NCBI GenBank assembly: GCA_006226985.1
Contig: SBGC01000140.1
Location: 1 to 30,611, forward strand
Origin: Bacillota bacterium
Lineage (GTDB): Bacteria; Bacillota_I; Bacilli_A; Acholeplasmatales; Acholeplasmataceae
DNA: 30,611 bases
Direction of reading: 5' to 3'
The notes beneath the pieces are model-generated. The model was not told the DNA's origin, searched no databases, and saw only the letters and a program-made list of their open reading frames with translations. The translations under genes and the position numbers were made by a program. Shown in pieces: positions 6,033 through 16,135 of the stretch. Position 1 is the stretch's first letter. Every line of letters starts with the position of its first letter.

Positions 6033-6680
6033 ATGAAACTTATAGATAATAAAGTTATTGAATTTATCGAACAAGTTGACTCTAAATCACCAGCTCCAGG
6101 TGGTGGTTCGGTATCAGCATTATGTGGTGCGATTGGTGCTTCACTTATTCGCATGGTTGGTCATTTAACAGTCGATAAAAAGAAATTTAATGCACTTGAT
6201 TCAAAAATCCAACTTGAGTTTAAAAGTACACTTTCAGAACTATTAATGATAAAAGAACAACTTATTTTATTGGTCGATAAAGATACGGATGCATTTAACA
6301 TGATTTTAAAAGCATACGCACTACCTAAAACAACAGATTCAGAAATAAACATCAGAAAAGAAGAAATTCAAGTTGCAACACTTGAAGCAATCATGGTACC
6401 ACTTAAAGTTGCAACGCTTTCCATGAGTGCACTTAATCATTTAGATACGATTTTACAAAATGGTAATAAATCAGCCATTTCAGATTTAGGTGTAGCTATA
6501 CTTACACTTATAACAGGTGTTGAAGGAGCTGCCTTAAACGTTTTAATTAACTTATCCGGATTAGAAGATCGTATTGCTGCACAGCAATTTAAAAATCAGG
6601 TTGATGAACTTCTAAAAAAAGCCCACCTTAAAAAAGATGAGCTTCTACCTAAGATTTATCAACAATTACTTAATTCATAG
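6033..6680 (+). CDS. fchA: Formiminotetrahydrofolate cyclodeaminase
   Basis: Converts 5-formimino-THF to 5,10-methenyl-THF and ammonia, completing the folate-linked end of histidine degradation. The 215-residue protein is a stand-alone cyclodeaminase equal to the C-terminal domain of FTCD. The N-terminal SPAPGGGSVSALCGAIGASL block is the family hallmark, and the rest is mainly helical as expected. It starts two bases after the hutI stop, so it is surely in the same operon. A strong hairpin terminator follows directly, marking the operon end. Confidence 0.93.
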   Translation: MKLIDNKVIEFIEQVDSKSPAPGGGSVSALCGAIGASLIRMVGHLTVDKKKFNALDSKIQLEFKSTLSELLMIKEQLILLVDKDTDAFNMILKAYALPKTTDSEINIRKEEIQVATLEAIMVPLKVATLSMSALNHLDTILQNGNKSAISDLGVAILTLITGVEGAALNVLINLSGLEDRIAAQQFKNQVDELLKKAHLKKDELLPKIYQQLLNS

Positions 6681-6683
6681 ACA

Positions 6684-6713
6684 TAAAAAAAGGAATCCGC
6701 GATTCTTTTTTTG
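6684..6713. terminator. Bidirectional terminator between fchA and the minus-strand gene
   Basis: A run of A residues, the inverted repeat GGAATC/GATTC around a CGC loop, and a run of T residues form a symmetrical intrinsic terminator. The T tract serves the hut operon on the plus strand. The A tract, read on the other strand, serves the convergent small membrane protein gene whose stop lies two bases away. Confidence 0.85.
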
Positions 6714-6714
6714 T

Positions 6715-6951
6715 TTAAGCAAAGAATTTCACACGACCATAGAGAATTACAGATACGATATCAATAATCCAGAGAATCGCAAATCCTAATACAATCCAAA
6801 GGATACCAACAACAAGCATGGTATTATCTTTTCTGTCAATACCTTTAGCAATACGATAAATACCATAAGCAATGCCATCTATCGCAGGTAAAGCAAGAAT
6901 CAGTTTAATTAAAAAAGGTAAATCATCATAAGCTTTTACTAAATCTCTCAT
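6715..6951 (-). CDS. Small membrane protein, function unknown
   Basis: A 78-residue protein starting MRDLVKAYDD, with two hydrophobic segments at about residues 12-34 and 44-71 separated by a short charged stretch (DRKDN). I choose the start at 6951 because AAAGGAGG lies at the right distance upstream on the minus strand; the frame is open to 7017, but the earlier ATGs have no such site. It resembles the generic two-helix membrane proteins common in low-GC Gram-positive genomes, and I cannot give it a function. It is the only minus-strand gene in the window, lies between two catabolic operons, has its own promoter, and shares a terminator with hut. Confidence 0.7.
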   Translation of the reverse strand: MRDLVKAYDDLPFLIKLILALPAIDGIAYGIYRIAKGIDRKDNTMLVVGILWIVLGFAILWIIDIVSVILYGRVKFFA

Positions 6952-6980
6952 TGAACAACCTCCTTTGTCTTTATACCTTA

Positions 6981-7008
6981 AGTATACACTCATTAAATTT
7001 AATTTCAA
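6981..7008 (-). promoter_or_regulatory. Promoter for the small membrane protein gene
   Basis: On the minus strand TTGAAA (7008-7003) and TATACT (6986-6981) are separated by 16 bases, each matching the sigma-A consensus at five of six positions. They lie about 30 bases upstream of the chosen start at 6951. Confidence 0.6.
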
Positions 7009-7085
7009 GTATTGCAAATTTTAATCAAAGATTACTATCAAAAAAGACTTGATTATATTTCAATATACTTTCGTTCTAAAAGATG

Positions 7086-7115
7086 TTGACAGCGCTTTCA
7101 TTATTCGTTTATAAT
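7086..7115 (+). promoter_or_regulatory. Sigma-A-type promoter of the lysine fermentation operon
   Basis: A perfect TTGACA at 7086-7091 and a perfect TATAAT at 7110-7115 are separated by 18 bases. The transcript would start near 7122, a few bases before the lysine riboswitch aptamer. No other promoter of this quality was noticed in the window, which suggests high intrinsic strength held in check by the riboswitch and by the overlapping cre-like box. Confidence 0.85.
7087..7100. promoter_or_regulatory. Probable cre box (CcpA site) overlapping the -35 of the lysine operon
   Basis: The 14-mer TGACAGCGCTTTCA matches the catabolite-responsive element consensus TGWAANCGNTNWCA at 13 of 14 positions, differing only at position 4. 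It covers five of the six bases of the -35 box, so a bound CcpA would block RNA polymerase. This implies that lysine fermentation is switched off when preferred sugars are present. No ccpA gene lies in the window, so the regulator is inferred. Confidence 0.7.
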
Positions 7116-7130
7116 GGATATGTAGATTCG

Positions 7131-7298
7131 ATACAGAGGTGCGATTTATTGTGTACTTTTATCACGAAAAGAATGGACGTTCATGTGATTAAAGGAAGGA
7201 ATACGTCGCCGAAAGCTTAATTTTGTCCAACCTTAAGCTTGGTGAATGAGGATACACTTCATTCATTGCCATTTTGTGTGAAAAATGGAGAGCTGTTT
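7131..7298 (+). promoter_or_regulatory. Lysine riboswitch (L box) aptamer
   Basis: The conserved L-box core is present: AGAGGTGCG at 7135-7143, AAAGGAAGGAAT in the middle, and CGTCGCCGAAAGC around 7204-7216. Helices can be drawn: P2 with ATCAC/GTGAT, P3 with AAGCTTAA/TTAAGCTT (7214-7221 and 7233-7240), P4 with TGAATGA/TCATTCA, and P5 with CATTTT/AAAATG (7270-7275 and 7282-7287). P5 is followed by the joining segment GAGAG and the P1 3' strand CTGT (7293-7296), which pairs with ACAG (7133-7136). The RNA lies between a perfect promoter and the lysine fermentation genes, so ligand and target agree. The 3' end overlaps an intrinsic terminator, with an arrangement that favours activation by lysine. 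Confidence 0.92.
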
Positions 7299-7324
7299 TT
7301 TATAACAGTTCTCCTTATTTTTTT
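7287..7324 (+). terminator. Riboswitch-controlled intrinsic terminator
   Basis: An 11-base-pair stem (GGAGAGCTGTT with AACAGTTCTCC, one G-U pair, loop 7298-7303) is followed by TTATTTTTTT. Its 5' arm, 7287-7297, is made of the last base of P5, the J5/1 joining segment and the P1 3' strand of the lysine aptamer. Terminator and folded aptamer therefore cannot coexist. Confidence 0.9.
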
Positions 7325-7342
7325 GAAAGAAGAGGAAAAATC

Positions 7343-7762
7343 ATGATTAGAAAAATGAACATTGGTGACGTAAGATCTTATACAAGAATCATTACACAAG
7401 AAGACGTTTTAAAATTTGGTGAGTTAACAGGTGATATGAATGATACCCATTTCAATGAAGCCTATGCTGCAACCACAATTTTTAAAAAACCGATTGTACA
7501 CGGTATGCTAATTGGATCACTATTCAGTAAAATATTTGGGTTAGATTATCCAGGCGAAGGAACGATTTATTGTTCCCAATCACTCATTTTTAAGAAACCG
7601 GTATATCCCAACCAAACTTTAATTGTTAAAGTAACGGTTAAAGATATTGTTCTAGAAAAAAATCGCGTGATTTTTACAACAGAAATACTTAATGAGCAAC
7701 AAGAAGTTATGCTCACAGGTGAAGCGATGCTTATGCCAAGAAAAGAGGTTCATCATGAATAA
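7343..7762 (+). CDS. MaoC-like hot-dog dehydratase / enoyl-CoA hydratase
   Basis: A 139-residue single hot-dog-fold protein of the MaoC/PhaJ family. The hydratase-2 motif is clear in TGDMNDTHFNEAYA, with Asp31 and His36 at the catalytic positions known from (R)-specific enoyl-CoA hydratases. The start is ATG 7343, after a GAGG site; the frame extends back into the riboswitch terminator, which cannot be coding. It is the first gene of the lysine operon and overlaps atoD by eight bases. The likely reaction is reversible hydration of crotonyl-CoA to 3-hydroxybutyryl-CoA, giving a route from the crotonyl-CoA made by Kal. A gene for an (R)-specific dehydrogenase is not seen here, so the exact role is open. 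It is not part of the lysine pathway as usually drawn. Confidence 0.85.
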   Translation: MIRKMNIGDVRSYTRIITQEDVLKFGELTGDMNDTHFNEAYAATTIFKKPIVHGMLIGSLFSKIFGLDYPGEGTIYCSQSLIFKKPVYPNQTLIVKVTVKDIVLEKNRVIFTTEILNEQQEVMLTGEAMLMPRKEVHHE

Positions 7763-8399
7763 ATGGATTGATAAAGAAACTTTTATAAAACTCTTAAAAG
7801 ATGGTCAATCGATTATGTTTGGTGGGTTCCTTGCATGCGGAACACCAGAATTACTCATTGATTGGATTATGGAATCACATGTTAAAGATCTAACCATGAT
7901 TGGTAATGATGCTGGATGGCCAACAAAAGGTATTGGGAAATTGATTGCGAATAATCAAGTAAAAAGAATTATTGTCTCACATATAGGTACAAATCCAGAA
8001 GCAGGAAAAAGAATGCATGATGGAAACCTTATCGTTACTCTTGTCCCACAAGGATCTCTTATTGAAAAAATTAGAGCATTTGGTGCGGGGTTAGGTGGTA
8101 TCTTAACTCCTACGGGTTTTAAAACAATCGCAGAAGAAAATAAACGAATTATTGATGTTCAAGGTGTTTCCTATTTATTAGAAGAACCTCTCGGTGCAGA
8201 TATTGCCATTATTGAAGCAAGACAAGCAGATGATAAAGGTAATTTAGTATATGACAAAACAGCTAGAAATTTCAATCCTGTGATCGCTACTGCTGCAAAA
8301 ACAGTCATAGCATGTACAAAAGAAAGAGTGTCACATATCGATCCTGAGTGTGTCATTACACCACATATATTTATCGATTTCTTAGTGAAGGAGGATTAA
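7755..8399 (+). CDS. atoD: Butyryl-CoA:acetoacetate CoA-transferase, alpha subunit
   Basis: The 214-residue product is the alpha subunit of a class I CoA-transferase, recognisable from the N-terminal MFGGFLACGTPELLIDWI and the central VPQGSLIEKIRAFGAGLGG block. With the beta subunit it moves CoA from butyryl-CoA to acetoacetate, releasing butyrate and forming acetoacetyl-CoA. In lysine fermentation this reuses the acetoacetate released by Kce and ends the butyrate branch. Substrate preference is inferred from the operon, since sequence alone does not separate it from other short-chain CoA-transferases. ATG 7755 overlaps the maoC stop as ATGAATAA. The beta subunit begins two bases after the stop. 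Confidence 0.92.
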   Translation: MNKWIDKETFIKLLKDGQSIMFGGFLACGTPELLIDWIMESHVKDLTMIGNDAGWPTKGIGKLIANNQVKRIIVSHIGTNPEAGKRMHDGNLIVTLVPQGSLIEKIRAFGAGLGGILTPTGFKTIAEENKRIIDVQGVSYLLEEPLGADIAIIEARQADDKGNLVYDKTARNFNPVIATAAKTVIACTKERVSHIDPECVITPHIFIDFLVKED

Positions 8400-8401
8400 T
8401 C

Positions 8402-9049
8402 ATGGAAGCTAAAGATATTATTGCTAAACGCATAGCGATGGAACTAAAGGATGGCGACCTCGTTAATCTTGGTATTGGTCTTCCACTAGGTGTTGCTAAT
8501 TATATTCCCGAAGGTATCGAAATCTTTTTACAAAGTGAAAATGGAATTATTGGATTAGGACCTTTAGCAGAAGGTGATGATATCGATCATCATTTAACAA
8601 ATGCTGGAGCGCAGCCTTCAACCATATTACCTTATGGAATGTATTTTGATACAGCAACTTCGTTTGGCATTATCCGTGGTGGCCATGTGGATGCAACCAT
8701 TTTAGGCGCACTTGAAGTGGATCAAGAAGGATCACTTGCATCATGGATTATTCCAGGAAAACTTGTTCCTGGTATGGGTGGTGCGATGGATTTAGTTGTT
8801 GGTGCAAAGAAAGTGATTATAGCAACTACACATACAAACAAAGGTGTTTCAAAGATTAAGAAGAAGTGCAGTTTACCTTTAACAGCATATGGTCAGGTCA
8901 ACTTGATTGTTACTGAACTAGCTGTGATGGAAGTTAGAAAAGATGGATTGCACTTAATTGAAAGACATCCTGATGTCTCTATTGAAGAAATTATAAACAA
9001 TACTGAAGCTGACCTCATTATAAACGACGTCAAGCTCATGAATATATAG
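8402..9049 (+). CDS. atoA: Butyryl-CoA:acetoacetate CoA-transferase, beta subunit
   Basis: The 215-residue beta subunit carries the catalytic glutamate of class I CoA-transferases, Glu46 in the SENG motif (FLQSENGIIGLGP), which forms the glutamyl-CoA thioester intermediate. Also typical are GIGLPLGVANYIPEG before it and the GGHVDATILGALEVD and GKLVPGMGGAMDLV segments after it. It starts at ATG 8402 behind AAGGAGG; an in-frame ATG at 8348 is inside atoD and gives an unnatural N-terminal tail. It works as a heteromer with the preceding gene product. The kal gene follows after 9 bases. Confidence 0.94.
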   Translation: MEAKDIIAKRIAMELKDGDLVNLGIGLPLGVANYIPEGIEIFLQSENGIIGLGPLAEGDDIDHHLTNAGAQPSTILPYGMYFDTATSFGIIRGGHVDATILGALEVDQEGSLASWIIPGKLVPGMGGAMDLVVGAKKVIIATTHTNKGVSKIKKKCSLPLTAYGQVNLIVTELAVMEVRKDGLHLIERHPDVSIEEIINNTEADLIINDVKLMNI

Positions 9050-9058
9050 GAGAAACAT

Positions 9059-9448
9059 ATGAAAGTTGTTCATAAATTACGTTTATCGTTAGCAGATGCA
9101 CACTACGGTGGAAACCTTGTTGATGGGGCTAAAGTATTAGCATTATTTGGTGATGTAGCAACCGAACTTCTCATTATGACAGATGGAGATGAAGGTTTGT
9201 TTAGAGCATATGAAAAAGTTGATTTTTTAAAACCTCTTTATGCAGGAGATTTTATTGAAATTCATGGTGAAATTATTCATTATGGAAACACATCCAGAAA
9301 GATGCATTTTTCATGTTTCAAAGTGATTGCATCTCGACCAGATATTAGTCCTTCAGCAGCTGATGTTTTAAAAGAAAAAGAGTTAACAACAGAAGCATGG
9401 GGAACATGTATTGTACCACAAGAAAAAAAGAGAGTTCATCATGAATAA
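9059..9448 (+). CDS. kal: 3-Aminobutyryl-CoA ammonia-lyase
   Basis: Removes ammonia from L-3-aminobutyryl-CoA to give crotonyl-CoA, the last lysine-specific step. The 129-residue hot-dog protein has the characteristic [20 protein letters not shown] block at residues 13-32, then [22 protein letters not shown] and GNTSRKMHF. It is distantly related in fold to the MaoC-like product at the start of the operon but keeps its own motifs. ATG 9059 follows an AGGAGAA site. Its stop overlaps kce as ATGAATAA, and its last bases (GTTCATCATGAATAA) are identical to the end of the maoC gene, as described in the findings. Confidence 0.93.
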
Positions 9449-10283
9449 GCTTATTATTACGTGTGCTATATCGGGTGCTGAAGTTACAAAGAAAGAGCAT
9501 CCTGCTATTCCATACACCATTGAAGAAACCGTTGAACAAGCATATCTTGCATATAAAGCAGGTGCATCAATCATCCATCTTCACGTGAGAAAAGATGATG
9601 GCACACCTACACAAAGTAAAATCAGATATGAAAAAACGATGAAGGCTATTCGAAAGAAGTGTCCTGATGTCATTATTCAACCATCGACTGGTGGTGCTGT
9701 TGGTATGTCTCGTAAAACACGACTTAAGCCAACAGAACTTCCAATTGAGATGGCAACACTTGATTGTGGAACACTTAATTTCGGTGGCGATGACATTTTT
9801 GTAAATACAGAAAATGATATTAAATTCTTTGCGAAAACGATGAAAGAAAAAAATATTTTTCCTGAACTCGAATGTTTTGAAAAAGGACATATTGATACTG
9901 TTCTACGTCTATACAAAAAAGGGTTTATGTTTGATCCTCTGCATTTCAGTTTTGTACTGGGTGTCAATGGTGGAATGACTGGAGAAGAAAGAGATTTTCA
10001 TTTTATGAGAGAATCGATTCCTGAGCATGTAACCTATAGTGTAGCTGGCATTGGACGTTATGAATTTAGTCTTGCTGAGTTATCGATAAAACATGGTGGT
10101 CATGTACGAGTTGGTCTTGAAGATAACATCTATATTGAAAAAGGTGTACGTGCTAAAGATAACAAAGAACTTGTTGAAAAAGTTGTTGAAATTGCAAAGA
10201 GATATCACCGAGAAATCGCATCACCAAAGGAAGCTCGACAAATCCTTGGTATAAAGGAGTTTAACCATGAAAGCATACTCTAG
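9441..10283 (+). CDS. kce: 3-Keto-5-aminohexanoate cleavage enzyme
   Basis: Condenses (5S)-5-amino-3-oxohexanoate with acetyl-CoA to give L-3-aminobutyryl-CoA and acetoacetate, a BKACE-family TIM-barrel reaction needing zinc. The metal ligands His46 and His48 are in IIHLHVR, and Glu227 in VGLEDN is the third ligand by comparison with the characterised enzyme. Substrate-binding segments such as [15 protein letters not shown] are conserved. The 280-residue length is normal. The start at 9441 overlaps the kal stop by eight bases; the same frame extends to an ATG at 9411 inside kal, which I reject. It overlaps kdd by 17 bases. Confidence 0.96.
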
Positions 10284-11307
10284 ATATGGTACACATCGTG
10301 TAATCGAACCACAAGGTGTATTGCCACAAGCAGCTTTAAAAATAGATGCAACACCTGTGTGTTATCCTCCAGAATGCTTAATCGATGTCGATATATTAAA
10401 TATTGATTCTGCATCATTTCATCAAATCAAGCAGGCATGTCAACACGATGAGAACAAAATGAAAGAAATGATTTTAAATATTGTAAAGAATCAAGGAAAG
10501 ATGCAAAATCCTGTAACAAAAAGCGGTGGGATGCTTATTGGAAAAGTCATTGAAAAGGGAAACGATTTTCATCACCCAGATTTAAATGTGGGTGATAAAA
10601 TTGCAACATTAGTATCCTTATCATTAACACCTCTTATGATTGATGAAATCATATCGATTAATTTAGATAATGAGCAAGTTAACATAAAAGGAAAGGCTAT
10701 TTTATTTGATTCTGGCATTTACGCCAAGATACCAAATGATTTAAATGAAAAGTTAGTATTAGCTGCCCTTGATGTATGTGGTGCACCTGCACAAGTGAAA
10801 AAATTAGCAAAGAAAAATCAAACCGTATTTATTATCGGTGCTGCAGGAAAATCGGGTTTACTATGTTCATATATGGCTAAAAAACACGTTGGACCTCATG
10901 GAAAAGTGATTGGCCTCGTTAACGAAATAGCACAAAAAGAATTACTAGAAAAACTTGGTTATGTTGATCATATCATTTTGGAAAGTGCACTTGATAGTGT
11001 AAAAGTATATGAACACGTTAATAAACTTACACAAGGAGAACTTGCTGATTTAACCATTAATGTTGTGAATGTCGAAAACACTGAAATGACATCGATATTA
11101 TCAACAAAAGATGAGGGTATCGTGTATTTCTTTTCAATGGCTACATCATTCACAAAAGCAGCTTTAGGTGCTGAAGGTGTATCGAAAGATGTCACGATGA
11201 TTATTGGAAACGGATATACAAAGAATCATGCAAACATTACCCTTGATTTACTTAGAGAAAATAAAGAACTTCATGACTTATTTGTGAAAAGATATGTGGG
11301 AGAGTAA
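10267..11307 (+). CDS. kdd: L-erythro-3,5-diaminohexanoate dehydrogenase
   Basis: Oxidatively deaminates (3S,5S)-3,5-diaminohexanoate to 5-amino-3-oxohexanoate with a pyridine nucleotide, releasing ammonia. The 346-residue sequence has the distinctive N-terminus YGTHRVIEPQGVLPQAA and the GKMQNPVTKSGGMLIGKV block I associate with Kdd. A Rossmann region follows (VFIIGAAGKSGLLCSYMAKK), giving a medium-chain-dehydrogenase-like layout. ATG 10267 has an AAGGAG site inside the end of kce, and the two genes overlap by 17 bases. kamA starts three bases after the stop. The operon order reads the pathway roughly backwards, with late enzymes first. Confidence 0.95.
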   Translation: MKAYSRYGTHRVIEPQGVLPQAALKIDATPVCYPPECLIDVDILNIDSASFHQIKQACQHDENKMKEMILNIVKNQGKMQNPVTKSGGMLIGKVIEKGNDFHHPDLNVGDKIATLVSLSLTPLMIDEIISINLDNEQVNIKGKAILFDSGIYAKIPNDLNEKLVLAALDVCGAPAQVKKLAKKNQTVFIIGAAGKSGLLCSYMAKKHVGPHGKVIGLVNEIAQKELLEKLGYVDHIILESALDSVKVYEHVNKLTQGELADLTINVVNVENTEMTSILSTKDEGIVYFFSMATSFTKAALGAEGVSKDVTMIIGNGYTKNHANITLDLLRENKELHDLFVKRYVGE

Positions 11308-11310
11308 AAA

Positions 11311-12585
11311 ATGAAAAATATATTGAATGAACGACATATTGAAAGAAGATATCAATATTTTCCTCATGTAACTGATGAAGAATGGAATGATTGGAAATGG
11401 CAGACCAAGCATCGCATTAAAAACGCAGTTGAATTAAAGAAATACATAAACTTAACTGAAAGTGAAGAAAAAACAATTGAAGGTGTATTAGGTAAACTTC
11501 GCATGGCCATTACCCCCTATTATCTTTCACTTATCGATCCCATGAATCCTCATTGTCCAATTAGACAACAAGCAATACCACTAGGTAATGAGCTTTTTGT
11601 TGGAAAAAATGATTTATACGATCCACTTGCTGAAGACCATGATTCACCCGTTCCAGGACTTACACATCGTTATCCAGATCGCGTCCTCTTTTTGATCACA
11701 GATATGTGTGCGATGTATTGTAGACATTGTACACGCCGTCGTTTTGCTGGTCAAAAGGATGGAGAACAACACATCGATAACATTGATAAAGCAATTGAAT
11801 ATATTAGAAATCATGAAGAAATTAATGATGTATTACTATCTGGCGGAGATGCCTTCATGGCAAGTAACGAAAGAATTGAATATATCTTAAAAAAGCTTCG
11901 AGAAATTGATCATGTTCAAGTAATACGTTTTGGAACAAGAACACCTGTTGTTGTTCCACAAAGAATAACCGATGAGCTTGTAAATATGCTCAAAAAATAT
12001 CATCCAATTTGGGTAAACACACATTTTAATCATCCAGATGAAATCACGCCAGAAAGTAAAAAAGCTATCGATAAAATGGTTGATGCTGGAATTAATGTGG
12101 GTAATCAATCTGTATTACTGAGAGGCATTAATGATTGTGTTTTTGTCATGAGACGCTTAGTCAAGAGTTTGGTTGCGATTAGAGTAAGACCTTATTATAT
12201 CTATCAATGTGATTTATCTGTGGGTATTGAACATTTTAGAACAACCGTTTCAAAAGGTATTGAAATTATTGAAGGTCTAAGAGGACATGTTACTGGATTT
12301 GCAGTTCCAACCTTTGTCGTTGATGCACCTGGTGGTGGCGGAAAAATCCCAGTGATGCCAAATTACGTGATTTCACATGCTCCAGGAAAAATAGTTTTGA
12401 GAAACTTTGAAGGTGTTATTACAACATACAGTGAACCAGAACATTATGAATCTCATTGTGACTGTGAAGATTGTAAAACAAAGAAATTAGATGGTGTTTC
12501 AGGATTATTACATGGCGATAAACTCTCTCTTGAGCCTGAACATTTAGAGAGAAGAAAGAGAACATTAAGTGCGAAAAATCATTGA
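11311..12585 (+). CDS. kamA: Lysine 2,3-aminomutase (radical SAM)
   Basis: Converts L-lysine to L-beta-lysine, the entry step of the pathway, using a [4Fe-4S] cluster, S-adenosylmethionine and PLP. The cluster cysteines are Cys133, Cys137 and Cys140 in CAMYCRHC. The PLP lysine is Lys345 in PGGGGKIPVMPN. Both lie eight residues downstream of their counterparts in the Clostridium subterminale enzyme (Cys125/129/132 and Lys337), so the core is collinear. The C-terminal CDCEDCKTKK segment resembles the clostridial zinc-binding tail. The length of 424 residues is normal. It starts three bases after kdd and overlaps the next gene by 17 bases. Confidence 0.97.
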   Translation: MKNILNERHIERRYQYFPHVTDEEWNDWKWQTKHRIKNAVELKKYINLTESEEKTIEGVLGKLRMAITPYYLSLIDPMNPHCPIRQQAIPLGNELFVGKNDLYDPLAEDHDSPVPGLTHRYPDRVLFLITDMCAMYCRHCTRRRFAGQKDGEQHIDNIDKAIEYIRNHEEINDVLLSGGDAFMASNERIEYILKKLREIDHVQVIRFGTRTPVVVPQRITDELVNMLKKYHPIWVNTHFNHPDEITPESKKAIDKMVDAGINVGNQSVLLRGINDCVFVMRRLVKSLVAIRVRPYYIYQCDLSVGIEHFRTTVSKGIEIIEGLRGHVTGFAVPTFVVDAPGGGGKIPVMPNYVISHAPGKIVLRNFEGVITTYSEPEHYESHCDCEDCKTKKLDGVSGLLHGDKLSLEPEHLERRKRTLSAKNH

Positions 12586-13558
12586 TAATTATAAAACAAT
12601 CGGTGTCTTTGGTTTAGCTAAAAATACAGGTAAGACAACCACACTCAACTACATGATGAGTCTTTATCAACATGCTAAAATTGGTTTAACATCAATCGGT
12701 CTAGATGGGGAAGACCTTGATCAAATTAATTACTTACCTAAACCAAAAATTCATGTAAAAAAGGGTATGATTGTTGCTACAACACAAGCTTGTCTTGAAG
12801 ATACCAAAATCACATATCAACTACTAAAAAAAGTAGATCTTTTTACCGCGCTCGGTCCTGTTCGTATGATTGAAGTGCTCTCAGATGGTTTTTTAGTTGT
12901 TGCAGGTCCAACAACTAATAAAGAATTGAGATTGCTTTTAGATGTTATGAAACCTTATGTAGATAAGCTTTTTATTGATGGGGCATTTAATCGGATGACT
13001 TTTGCAAGTTTAAATCAAATTGATGCGATGGTGCTAGCAACCGGTGCTGCCGTTCATCCTTCAATGGATAAAACCATTCAACGAACAAAAGCAATTGTTG
13101 AGTCCTTCCAACTACCTATTTCACAGACATATCTATATATACCTAACACCAAAATGATTATTCATGAAAAGATCAGTGTGCATTTATTTAAACAAAAAAG
13201 CTATTCCAATTTTATAGATGCGATCAACCAATATAAAGATGTTATGGAAATGATGTACATTCAAGGAGCAATTACGCCAAGAATGGTTGATGTTTTATTA
13301 GAAAAAAGGGTTAGAAATATCGAACTTGTTATTGATGATCCGACGAAATTACTTATCTCTGATGTTTATTATGAATACTTAAAAAAATTACGCATTAATA
13401 TATCAGTGATTTATCAAACAAAACTACTTTGTGTCACTATAAATCCTTTTAGACCCTCAGGGGATCATTATGATGAAAATGAGTTTCTTGACAAGATGAG
13501 AAAATCAGTGAATATACCTGTATTTAATGTATGTCAGATGGAGGTTGAACATGTCTAA
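12569..13558 (+). CDS. kamB: P-loop NTPase of the lysine aminomutase operon, KamB-like (putative 5,6-aminomutase reactivation factor)
   Basis: A 329-residue protein with a nucleotide-binding loop at residues 15-24 (GLAKNTGKTT). Its Lys18-Asn-Thr-Gly-Lys-Thr core resembles the deviant Walker A of SIMIBI-class NTPases. Lysine fermentation clusters carry a gene at this position called kamB, annotated as part of a reactivating system for lysine 5,6-aminomutase; I assign it from position and P-loop, with no sequence comparison possible here. The start is GTG at 12569 inside kamA; no ATG lies between it and the P-loop. It overlaps kamA by 17 bases and kamD by eight. The usual neighbouring MutS-like gene, kamC, is absent. 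Its likely job is to eject damaged cobalamin or open the mutase, by analogy with other B12 chaperones. Confidence 0.7.
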   Translation: MRKIIDNYKTIGVFGLAKNTGKTTTLNYMMSLYQHAKIGLTSIGLDGEDLDQINYLPKPKIHVKKGMIVATTQACLEDTKITYQLLKKVDLFTALGPVRMIEVLSDGFLVVAGPTTNKELRLLLDVMKPYVDKLFIDGAFNRMTFASLNQIDAMVLATGAAVHPSMDKTIQRTKAIVESFQLPISQTYLYIPNTKMIIHEKISVHLFKQKSYSNFIDAINQYKDVMEMMYIQGAITPRMVDVLLEKRVRNIELVIDDPTKLLISDVYYEYLKKLRINISVIYQTKLLCVTINPFRPSGDHYDENEFLDKMRKSVNIPVFNVCQMEVEHV

Positions 13559-15119
13559 ATTAAATCTAAACCAAAAAGAGATTCAAGAATGTCGTATCTA
13601 TGCAAAACTCGTAGCTGATGATGTTCAATCATTTATCCAAAAACATACGACTGTTGCTGTGGAAAGAACAATTCTTAGATTATTAATGATTGATGGTGTT
13701 AATGATTTTGGTGCTCCTTTAGTCAATACAATGATTGATCACATTCAAAAAGATGCTGATTTATCAAAAGGAATTTGTCATTATTTGTCTTATGCAATTC
13801 ATGATACTAAAAAAACACCACAAGAAATTGCTATCCTTGTTTCAAAAGGAAATTTTAACTTATCGATATATAAAGATAAAGAAAAAAGTCCATATCTTCA
13901 TGAGTTAAATCCTTTCTTTAATCAATCTCTTTTCCAAATTGGAAAGATGAAAGAGATCAGAAAAGAATGGATTAATCAAAGTCCAGTTAAGCAAACACCT
14001 GCTAAATATGTCATTGTTGCTACAGGTAATATTTATGAAGATATCAAACAAGCTGTATCTGCAGCAAAAAAAGGTGCAGATATTATCGCTGTTATTCGTA
14101 GTACAGGTCAATCATTACTTGACTACGTCCCATTTGGTGCAACCACTGAAGGTTTTGGTGGTACATATGCGACACAAGAAAATTTCAGATTGATGAGAAA
14201 AGCTTTAGATGACGTTTCTAAAGAGGAAAAGAGATATATCAAACTTGTAAATTATGCATCAGGTTTATGCATGCCTGAAATTGTTGCGATGGGTGCACTC
14301 GAGCGACTCGATATGATGCTCAACGACTCACTTTACGGTATCATTTTTAGAGATATTAATATGAAAAGAACACTTGTTGATCAATACTTTTCACGCGTGT
14401 TAAGTGCATATGCTGATATTATTATAAATACCGGTGAAGATAATTATTTAACAACATCAGATGCTTATGATCATGCGCATACTGTTTTAGCATCACAGTT
14501 TATCAATGAACAATTTGCAAAAAACGCTTTAATGCCTGAATCACTCATGGGTCTAGGGCATGCTTATGAAATTGACCCTAATCTAGAGAATAGTTTTTTG
14601 TATGAACTTGCTCAAGCTGAAATGGCCAGAGAAATATTTCCAAATGCTCCTCTAAAGTATATGCCACCAACGAAACATATGACCGGAGATATTTTTAAGG
14701 GAACTGTTCAAAATGCATTATTCAATATTACAGCTGTAACGACCAAACAATCCATTCACTTATTAGGTATGATGACAGAAGCTATTCATACCCCTTTTGT
14801 CAGTGATCGTGCTTTAGCTCTTGATAATGCAGCATACATTGAAAAAGCTTTTAAAAATTTTGGTGATGAAATCCAATTTAAACCAGATGGCATGATTGTA
14901 AAACGTGCATCAGAAGTTTTAGAAAAAGCACATACTTTGTTAAAAGAAATCAAAGATGATGGTTTATTCAAAACACTTGAAAAAGGTGTCTTTGCTGGTA
15001 TATCTCGACATGAAGATCAAGGCAAAGGATTAAAAGGTGTCTATGTTAAACATAAAGACTATGAAAATCCTATTTTAGATGTGTTACTCAAAGATTTAAA
15101 GGGGGTATATCATGGATAA
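13551..15119 (+). CDS. kamD: Beta-lysine 5,6-aminomutase, alpha (large) subunit
   Basis: The 522-residue large subunit of the adenosylcobalamin- and PLP-dependent mutase that shifts the terminal amino group of L-beta-lysine to give 3,5-diaminohexanoate. It forms the TIM-barrel part; recognisable blocks are AAKKGADIIAVIRSTGQSLL, PFGATTEGFGGTYATQENFR and YASGLCMPEIVAMGALERLD. The same barrel makes up the first 500 residues of OraE further on, with a parallel motif (MVIRTAGQSHMDGLLEGTPQG). I start at ATG 13551, which overlaps the kamB stop as ATGTCTAA; the earlier in-frame ATG at 13527 is within kamB. It overlaps kamE by eight bases (ATGGATAA), as expected for subunits made in equal amounts. Confidence 0.95.
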   Translation: MSKLNLNQKEIQECRIYAKLVADDVQSFIQKHTTVAVERTILRLLMIDGVNDFGAPLVNTMIDHIQKDADLSKGICHYLSYAIHDTKKTPQEIAILVSKGNFNLSIYKDKEKSPYLHELNPFFNQSLFQIGKMKEIRKEWINQSPVKQTPAKYVIVATGNIYEDIKQAVSAAKKGADIIAVIRSTGQSLLDYVPFGATTEGFGGTYATQENFRLMRKALDDVSKEEKRYIKLVNYASGLCMPEIVAMGALERLDMMLNDSLYGIIFRDINMKRTLVDQYFSRVLSAYADIIINTGEDNYLTTSDAYDHAHTVLASQFINEQFAKNALMPESLMGLGHAYEIDPNLENSFLYELAQAEMAREIFPNAPLKYMPPTKHMTGDIFKGTVQNALFNITAVTTKQSIHLLGMMTEAIHTPFVSDRALALDNAAYIEKAFKNFGDEIQFKPDGMIVKRASEVLEKAHTLLKEIKDDGLFKTLEKGVFAGISRHEDQGKGLKGVYVKHKDYENPILDVLLKDLKGVYHG

Positions 15120-15861
15120 AAAATTGATTAGACCTTATGGTGATACACTTAATGATGGAAAAGTACAATTAAGTTTCTCATTACCTATTCCATGTAATGC
15201 ACTTGGCGAAGAAGCAGCAAAAACATTTGCAAAACACATGAATCTTTTTGATCCTCACGTTGTTCATAGTGCACCGCTTGGCGATTCCTTTAGTTTTTAC
15301 ATCGTTTATGGAACAACCAATCATCATGTTGATTTAAACAATGTTGAAGTAGTTGAAGTTGATTCAACATCGAGATCAAAAGAAGAAATCGAAGTCTTTA
15401 TTGAAGAAAACTTTAGTGAACCACTTGTTTTCATTGGTGCATCGACAGGTACAGATGCACACACTGTTGGCATTGATGCGATTATGAACATGAAAGGCTA
15501 CAATGGAAACTATGGCCTTGAACGTTATAAGGGCATTAAAGCGATTAATTTAGGTGGACAAGTTGAAAACGAACAACTACTAGAAGAGGCATTAAAACAT
15601 CAAGCAGATGTCATCTTAATTAGCCAAACAGTCACACAAAAAGATATACATATTCAAAACTTAACGTCATTTATTGAGCTACTAGAAGCTGAAAATGTAA
15701 GAGATCAATTCATCGTCATCATTGGTGGACCACGAATTAGTCATTCATTAGCGAAAGAGCTTGGGTATGATGCAGGTTTTGGTCCAAAAAAATATGCCTT
15801 TGATGTGGCAAGTTTTGCAGTCGATGCATTAAAAAATAAACGAATTAAACTTAAAAAATAA
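15112..15861 (+). CDS. kamE: Beta-lysine 5,6-aminomutase, beta (B12/PLP-binding) subunit
   Basis: The 249-residue cobalamin-binding subunit. Asp115-x-His117-x-x-Gly120 (GTDAHTVGID) is the base-off/His-on cobalamin motif, with His117 as lower cobalt ligand. Lys128 (NMKGYNG) lies 11 residues on, the same interval as between the cobalt His133 and PLP Lys144 of the Clostridium sticklandii enzyme, so Lys128 is the probable PLP Schiff-base lysine. The rest is a Rossmann-like B12 domain (AINLGGQVENEQL, VILISQTVTQKD, IVIIGGPRISH). It starts behind a strong AAAGGGGG site inside kamD. No terminator is visible after its stop, and the cobalamin riboswitch promoter follows within 15 bases, so some read-through into the B12 operon is likely. 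Confidence 0.96.
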   Translation: MDKKLIRPYGDTLNDGKVQLSFSLPIPCNALGEEAAKTFAKHMNLFDPHVVHSAPLGDSFSFYIVYGTTNHHVDLNNVEVVEVDSTSRSKEEIEVFIEENFSEPLVFIGASTGTDAHTVGIDAIMNMKGYNGNYGLERYKGIKAINLGGQVENEQLLEEALKHQADVILISQTVTQKDIHIQNLTSFIELLEAENVRDQFIVIIGGPRISHSLAKELGYDAGFGPKKYAFDVASFAVDALKNKRIKLKK

Positions 15862-15879
15862 CAAGCGATATGCTATAAT
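15851..15879 (+). promoter_or_regulatory. Promoter of the cobalamin riboswitch operon
   Basis: A perfect TATAAT at 15874-15879 lies 17 bases after TTAAAA at 15851-15856, a weak -35 that overlaps the end of kamE. Transcription would begin near 15886, just before the first paired strand of the cobalamin aptamer. Position relative to the aptamer is the main support. Confidence 0.6.
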
Positions 15880-15892
15880 CAAAGTAATCACA

Positions 15893-16037
15893 TGTATGGT
15901 GTTTAATTAAACATAACAGGGAATCAAGATAAGCTTGAGCTGTCCCAGCAACCGTGAGACGGACGAAATGCAATAACCACTGAGCAATTGGGAAGGTGCA
16001 TAGTAGATTGATGTCGAGCCGGGAGACCTACCACACA
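15893..16037 (+). promoter_or_regulatory. Cobalamin riboswitch aptamer
   Basis: The B12 box is present as GAGCCGGGAGACCTACC (16016-16032), close to the consensus AGYCAGGAGACCTGCC. The upstream core GCTGTCCCAGCAACCGTGAGACGGACG corresponds to the conserved GCTGTCCCGCAACTGT region. P1 can be drawn as TGTATGGT (15893-15900) with ACCACACA (16030-16037), with one A-C mismatch. The leader continues to the first gene at 16136 without a U-tract terminator. TCTCCT (16056-16061) is a perfect complement of the first gene's ribosome site AGGAGA (16123-16128), which suggests translational control. The downstream genes for uptake and adenosylation of B12 fit the usual feedback role. Confidence 0.93.
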
Positions 16038-16135
16038 TTGATAAATAAACAAAAGTCTCCTGGGTCAGAGATGGGCGCATTTTTCATTTTTTGCTGCTCA
16101 CCACCTAGGTACAAGACAGAAAAGGAGAAGCAAAA

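Follow-up and report, generated by a model that had tools for sequence, protein, structure and literature searches.

The window analysed here, a stretch of 30,611 nucleotides from a Bacillota genome, carries a lysine riboswitch aptamer in front of a lysine-fermentation operon, and the 3' strand of the aptamer's P1 helix shares bases with an intrinsic terminator, in whose 5' arm it lies. From this arrangement we predict a transcriptional ON switch whose decision is likely made kinetically, a reading to which we give a probability of about 0.88. Lysine riboswitches have been studied as OFF switches.

Aptamer, terminator and operon

The RF00168 covariance model matches positions 7126–7303 with 80.5 bits (E 9.4e-20; gathering score 30) and is complete over model positions 1–182; coordinates of the aptamer, its promoter-like site, the terminator and the operon all refer to the forward strand. 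This agrees with an earlier sequence-only reading, which had placed a lysine riboswitch at 7131–7324. The conserved junction letters J1/2 AGAGG and J2/3 GCCGAA are both present, and at the upper-case positions of the Rfam consensus the aptamer matches 38 of 49 and differs at 11. In the model alignment the P1 5' strand AUACAG (7131–7136) faces the 3' strand CUGUUU (7293–7298). The paired core consists of ACAG (7133–7136) and CUGU (7293–7296), the same pairs as had been proposed from the letters alone, with a U7132–U7297 mismatch beside it. Upstream lies a promoter-like site (7086–7115; TTGACA, 18-base spacer, TATAAT) that agrees with the consensus at 12 of 12 positions; it is a consensus match only, one of 8 promoter-like sites in the region 6650–7500 against 4.9 expected, and the sole full match among them.

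A terminator scan independent of the covariance model found a terminator-like hairpin at 7287–7314 with 11 pairs, a 6-base loop, a stability of -16.1 kcal/mol and the U-rich tail UUAUUUUUUU (7315–7324). Its 5' arm GGAGAGCUGUU (7287–7297) contains the P5 bases 7287–7288, the whole of J5/1 (AGAG, 7289–7292) and five of the six P1 3' positions (7293–7297), while AACAGUUCUCC (7304–7314) forms the 3' arm. Since the P1 3' strand and the terminator 5' arm share bases, P1 and terminator are mutually exclusive. The sequence-only reading had recognized this overlap, composed of the last P5 base, a J5/1 of GAGAG and CTGTT of P1. The overlap stands, but the covariance model shifts the borders, with P5 ending at 7288 (two P5 bases) and J5/1 reduced to AGAG; the P1 3' strand stays within 7288–7298, the interval on which that reading depended. 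In the region 6650–7500 two terminator-like sites were found, compared to 0.2 expected in shuffles. The second (7240–7268) lies in the P4 region of the aptamer, and the sole terminator-like hairpin outside the aptamer helices is the one that overlaps P1 itself.

The gene row starts 39 bases past the aptamer with a MaoC-like hotdog protein (7343–7762; PF01575, 64.9 bits), whose ATG has AAGAGG (7330–7335, by eye) ahead of it. Two CoA-transferase subunits follow at 7755–9049 (7755–8399 and 8402–9049; over the cut-offs of TIGR02429 and TIGR02428). The next seven proteins, all over their NCBIfam cut-offs, identify a lysine-fermentation operon, in line with the lysine catabolic operon of the sequence-only reading: kal, 3-aminobutyryl-CoA ammonia lyase (9059–9448, NF052388); kce, 3-keto-5-aminohexanoate cleavage enzyme (9441–10283, NF052387); kdd, 3,5-diaminohexanoate dehydrogenase (10267–11307, NF052381); kamA, lysine 2,3-aminomutase (11311–12585, TIGR03820); and the reactivase, alpha and beta subunits of lysine 5,6-aminomutase, kamB (12569–13558, NF052386), kamD (13551–15119, NF052384) and kamE (15112–15861, NF052385).

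Between kamE and a three-gene row ending with a PduO-type cobalamin adenosyltransferase lies a cobalamin riboswitch (15879–16049, 82.4 bits), which has an extended -10 promoter-like site of its own (15851–15879); the genes for the B12-dependent aminomutases are thus flanked in one locus by switches for lysine and for B12. At another leader (L156, genome G004) a cobalamin riboswitch (1125–1294) is located ∼2.8 kb upstream of the lysine aptamer on the same strand, an order unlike that of the window. Positions 227–29559 of the window form one contiguous amino-acid fermentation block of putative histidine-degradation-like genes, assigned by sequence, and genes for lysine, B12, ornithine (Ord, OrtA, OrtB, OraE and Or-4-like) and arginine deiminase. 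A second lysine aptamer of the same genome (63.8 bits) has a separate terminator and precedes a three-gene amino-acid ABC transporter, whose substrate protein is nearest to the lysine/arginine/ornithine-binding subfamily, under its cut-off.

Overlap of P1 and terminator in lysine leaders

Catabolic leaders were drawn from a family sample, from the genomes with kce in a phylum sample and from named GTDB genomes located via kce. They were compared to lysine aptamers at other loci of these genomes or of their relatives. Overlap was scored when the 5' arm of the best terminator and P1 shared at least 3 nt. Under a first terminator rule 47 of 52 catabolic leaders overlapped, as did 9 of the 69 others. 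Because this rule admitted long antiterminator-like hairpins, a compact-hairpin rule was adopted, chosen after the counts of the first rule had been seen, which gave 48/52 and 4/69. Among additional leaders, all three catabolic ones overlapped and none of 16 others reached 3 nt, the 16 class-sample leaders being non-catabolic on the grounds that the kce of their genome lies elsewhere, not gene by gene. In total, the terminator overlaps P1 in 51 of 55 catabolic but in only 4 of 85 other lysine leaders, which exceeds chance. With near-copies removed (75% identity, first 121 leaders) the counts are 36/40 and 1/26. Of 63 non-catabolic leaders, 37 have a terminator 5' arm whose pairing with the J5/1–P1 segment beats 95% of shuffles, which is the OFF layout, and 26 do not pass this test.

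The four catabolic leaders lacking overlap (L218, L222, L224 and L237) all belong to Clostridia. By eye, the P1 alignment of L237 seems to be off, and in L224 a long hairpin overlaps P1 and its U tail is weak; both are still counted as misses. In L218 and L222 the terminator is located further downstream, and a hairpin relay from the P1 3' strand, seen by eye, might give ON logic there. Left out of the counts were L097, for a masked run in the leader, and L180, L185 and L235, whose aptamer coordinates belong to other contigs; L259 is in no count. Leader L247 (G496:C61) was assigned to neither group: it has an ON-type overlapping terminator and no catabolic gene beside it, with no kam gene downstream by tblastn and no adjacent long same-strand gene. 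L156 is included in the terminator count and absent from the trees. In the family sample, several leaders are followed by less than 2.5 kb of contig, L094 by 125 bases.

These counts also bear on an ordinary OFF riboswitch, in which, as for the lysC L box, lysine would favour termination through P1 formation outcompeting an antiterminator. Lysine riboswitches usually follow this logic, and P1 and terminator do not overlap in 81 of the 85 non-catabolic leaders. For the window we nevertheless regard it as improbable. P1 and terminator share 7293–7297 there and cannot coexist, and repression of catabolism by its own substrate would make little sense. In the lysC type, an antiterminator that includes the P1 3' strand holds the 5' arm of a separate terminator; no such terminator was found between 7315 and the start codon in the scan of 6650–7500, and OFF logic through a separate terminator was rejected.

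In a quick tree of 121 rows built without P1, a branch with an SH-aLRT of 86 separates the 52 catabolic aptamers from the rest. When clostridial controls were added (140 rows, again without P1), 50 of 54 catabolic aptamers grouped with L247 at 95/100, and in this more careful tree the catabolic L123, L125, L126 and L181 fell among the others. A tree holding all catabolic rows and L247 together scores 13.8 log-likelihood units higher (p-AU 0.712), which disfavours two origins of the ON layout; several branches of these trees are long. One origin of the catabolic aptamers appears to be the better reading, neither rejected nor proved by the trees.

The grouping apart after P1 removal would also be expected if the catabolic aptamers sensed a relative of lysine in the pathway, such as beta-lysine, in place of L-lysine, leaving the ON mechanics unchanged. 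This seems a little less probable again, because J1/2 AGAGG and J2/3 GCCGAA each occur in 51 of the 52 catabolic aptamers and the aptamer of the window lies 50 bits above the Rfam cut-off.

Base changes in the three strands are consistent with the ON layout. Among 37 distinct overlapping leaders, pairing is found in 98.6% of the cells of the four P1 core pairs; with shuffled 5' strands the mean is 91.0% and none of 2000 shuffles reaches the observed value, a test inflated by related rows among the 37. The three strands change in step at the third pair (C-G-C in 24, C-G-U in 3 and U-A-U in 7) and at the fourth (A-U-A in 25, A-U-G in 5 and G-C-G in 3). The P1 3' bases thus covary with both partners, from C-G-C to U-A-U and from A-U-A to G-C-G, the P1 side being the only independent covariation test as the terminator partners were taken from predicted hairpins.

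A probable kinetic decision

In ViennaRNA ensembles of the window leader the terminator state (-63.4 kcal/mol) is better than the P1 state (-48.6 kcal/mol) by about 15 kcal/mol, and P1 itself contributes only ∼1.6 kcal/mol. The fold of the free leader always has the terminator, while the P1 5' strand pairs with the J4/5–P5 segment instead. Usual micromolar affinities make the ligand worth an estimated value of under ∼10 kcal/mol, so lysine cannot reverse the choice at equilibrium, and equilibrium switching was ruled out on these energies. It had been suggested that a lysine-stabilised aptamer would free transcription and that the 11-bp terminator would win otherwise. The ON logic of this proposal is supported by the overlap, the operon and the leader comparison, to the extent that sequence can speak for it; the part that needs revision is that the bound aptamer cannot win at equilibrium.

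That the free leader always folds into the terminator, and that hut-type genes end upstream at 6680, could also fit a hairpin that stops read-through from a hut operon, or stops transcription regardless of lysine, next to a translational or degenerate riboswitch, yet this is the least probable of the three alternatives, as the overlap persists in other lineages even though the sequences of P1 and of both terminator arms change there in step, the promoter-like site at 7086–7115 intervenes and the likely ribosome site at 7330–7335 lies outside the fold.

Under the kinetic ON reading, P1 (ACAG/CUGU) would close as RNA polymerase leaves the aptamer, ahead of the existence of the terminator 3' arm. 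Lysine at the junction would then hold P1 and J5/1 until the polymerase has cleared the U-rich tail, and kal, kce, kdd and kamABDE would be made. In the case that lysine is missing, the 3' arm likely invades P1 and J5/1, and transcription would stop at 7315–7324. With a terminator so much stabler than P1, the choice is likely kinetic, and lysine has to act in the span of roughly ten bases that separates a complete P1 from a complete terminator.

Such a decision would probably proceed as in the pbuE adenine riboswitch of Bacillus subtilis, for which the available text of PMC7707468 describes that the ligand delays strand exchange through P1 until the polymerase is past the U tract. Both pbuE and the model for the window are kinetic ON switches in which the terminator forms by strand exchange through P1, and in the window the terminator 5' arm (7287–7297) likewise contains P1 3' strand bases (7293–7297). 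The aptamer and the ligand are different, and according to the same text pbuE nucleates the exchange from a hairpin, P4, that is present in both states, whereas the terminator of the window has one pair beyond the P1 core. A fixed toehold hairpin beyond P1 that is compatible with the bound aptamer, as in pbuE, is absent from the window. The window switch therefore differs in build, and likely works like pbuE. Across the 48 overlapping leaders the number of terminator pairs beyond the P1 core has a median of 5 (range 0–14). For the window the single pair suggests that little time is left for the decision, so that the lysine threshold would be high.

Spread and relation to known systems

Of the 392 genomes in the phylum sample, 23 carry a kce that passes the cut-off, and in 22 of these 23 a lysine aptamer is present upstream of kce on the same strand within ∼4.2 kb. 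The remaining genome is G080, whose maoC-first kce operon (L157) gave no lysine aptamer within 8.5 kb even with E values of up to 1 admitted; this genome has one elsewhere. Absences from the sample-wide aptamer search are soft, as it missed the aptamer of G004, which was recovered by a direct scan. Among the best 80 of 341 named kce loci, those examined, 42 have titles of Bacillota, Mollicutes-like or undetermined organisms. The aptamer is linked in 25 of the 42, sits together with maoC on a different contig of that genome in 3 (L050, L255 and L256), and in 14 has neither the link nor a maoC-contig partner. The remaining 38 of these 80 loci (Bacteroidota, Asgard archaea, Cetobacterium, Brevinema and Desulfobacterales) have no linked aptamer, and any RF00168 match at all was found only in two Cetobacterium genomes among them.

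ON lysine riboswitches before fermentation genes were previously predicted, as the sequence-only reading had suspected. Lysine riboswitches before kal/kce are described as regulating positively in Clostridium sticklandii, Fusobacterium nucleatum and Thermoanaerobacter (PMC5584792). They have the aptamer class, the pathway genes and the proposed positive regulation in common with the window, which differs in belonging to an Acholeplasmataceae-like group and in an operon that opens with a maoC-like gene. That paper gives genes and direction only; the word 'terminator' is absent from it and the base-sharing layout is not described there. The available text of PMC2258182 (Barrick and Breaker 2007, citing Rodionov 2003) mentions lysine riboswitches of ON logic in which pieces of the terminator stem are buried; as in the window, ligand binding would place part of the stem in an alternative pairing. 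Unlike the present analysis, this mention comes with no comparative count or geometry in the text available. The lysine-ON riboswitches in use are engineered ones, selected in the laboratory from OFF switches, according to the available parts of PMC5651080 and PMC10974012. Lysine-activated expression, predicted for the window, is common to both, while the switch of the window is natural and probably transcriptional. A literature search, with subscription papers mostly outside its reach, found no experiment on a natural lysine-ON riboswitch. The fresh parts are the breadth and the short-toehold geometry; the present analysis adds the leader comparison, the covariation across three strands, the need for kinetic control and the gradient in toehold length.

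We tentatively propose, at somewhat less than even odds, that the leaders before the fermentation operon represent a single ON-only lineage that travels with the pathway through Mollicutes-like Bacilli and Clostridia. In this lineage the lysine threshold would be set by the shortness of the toehold beyond P1 and not by affinity, and the group of the window would lie near the zero-toehold end. As a natural set in which a single aptamer class serves both logics, often within the same genome, these leaders would offer a clean test of expression-platform reversal, and the members with short toeholds would probe whether a nucleating hairpin is required for a kinetic ON switch.
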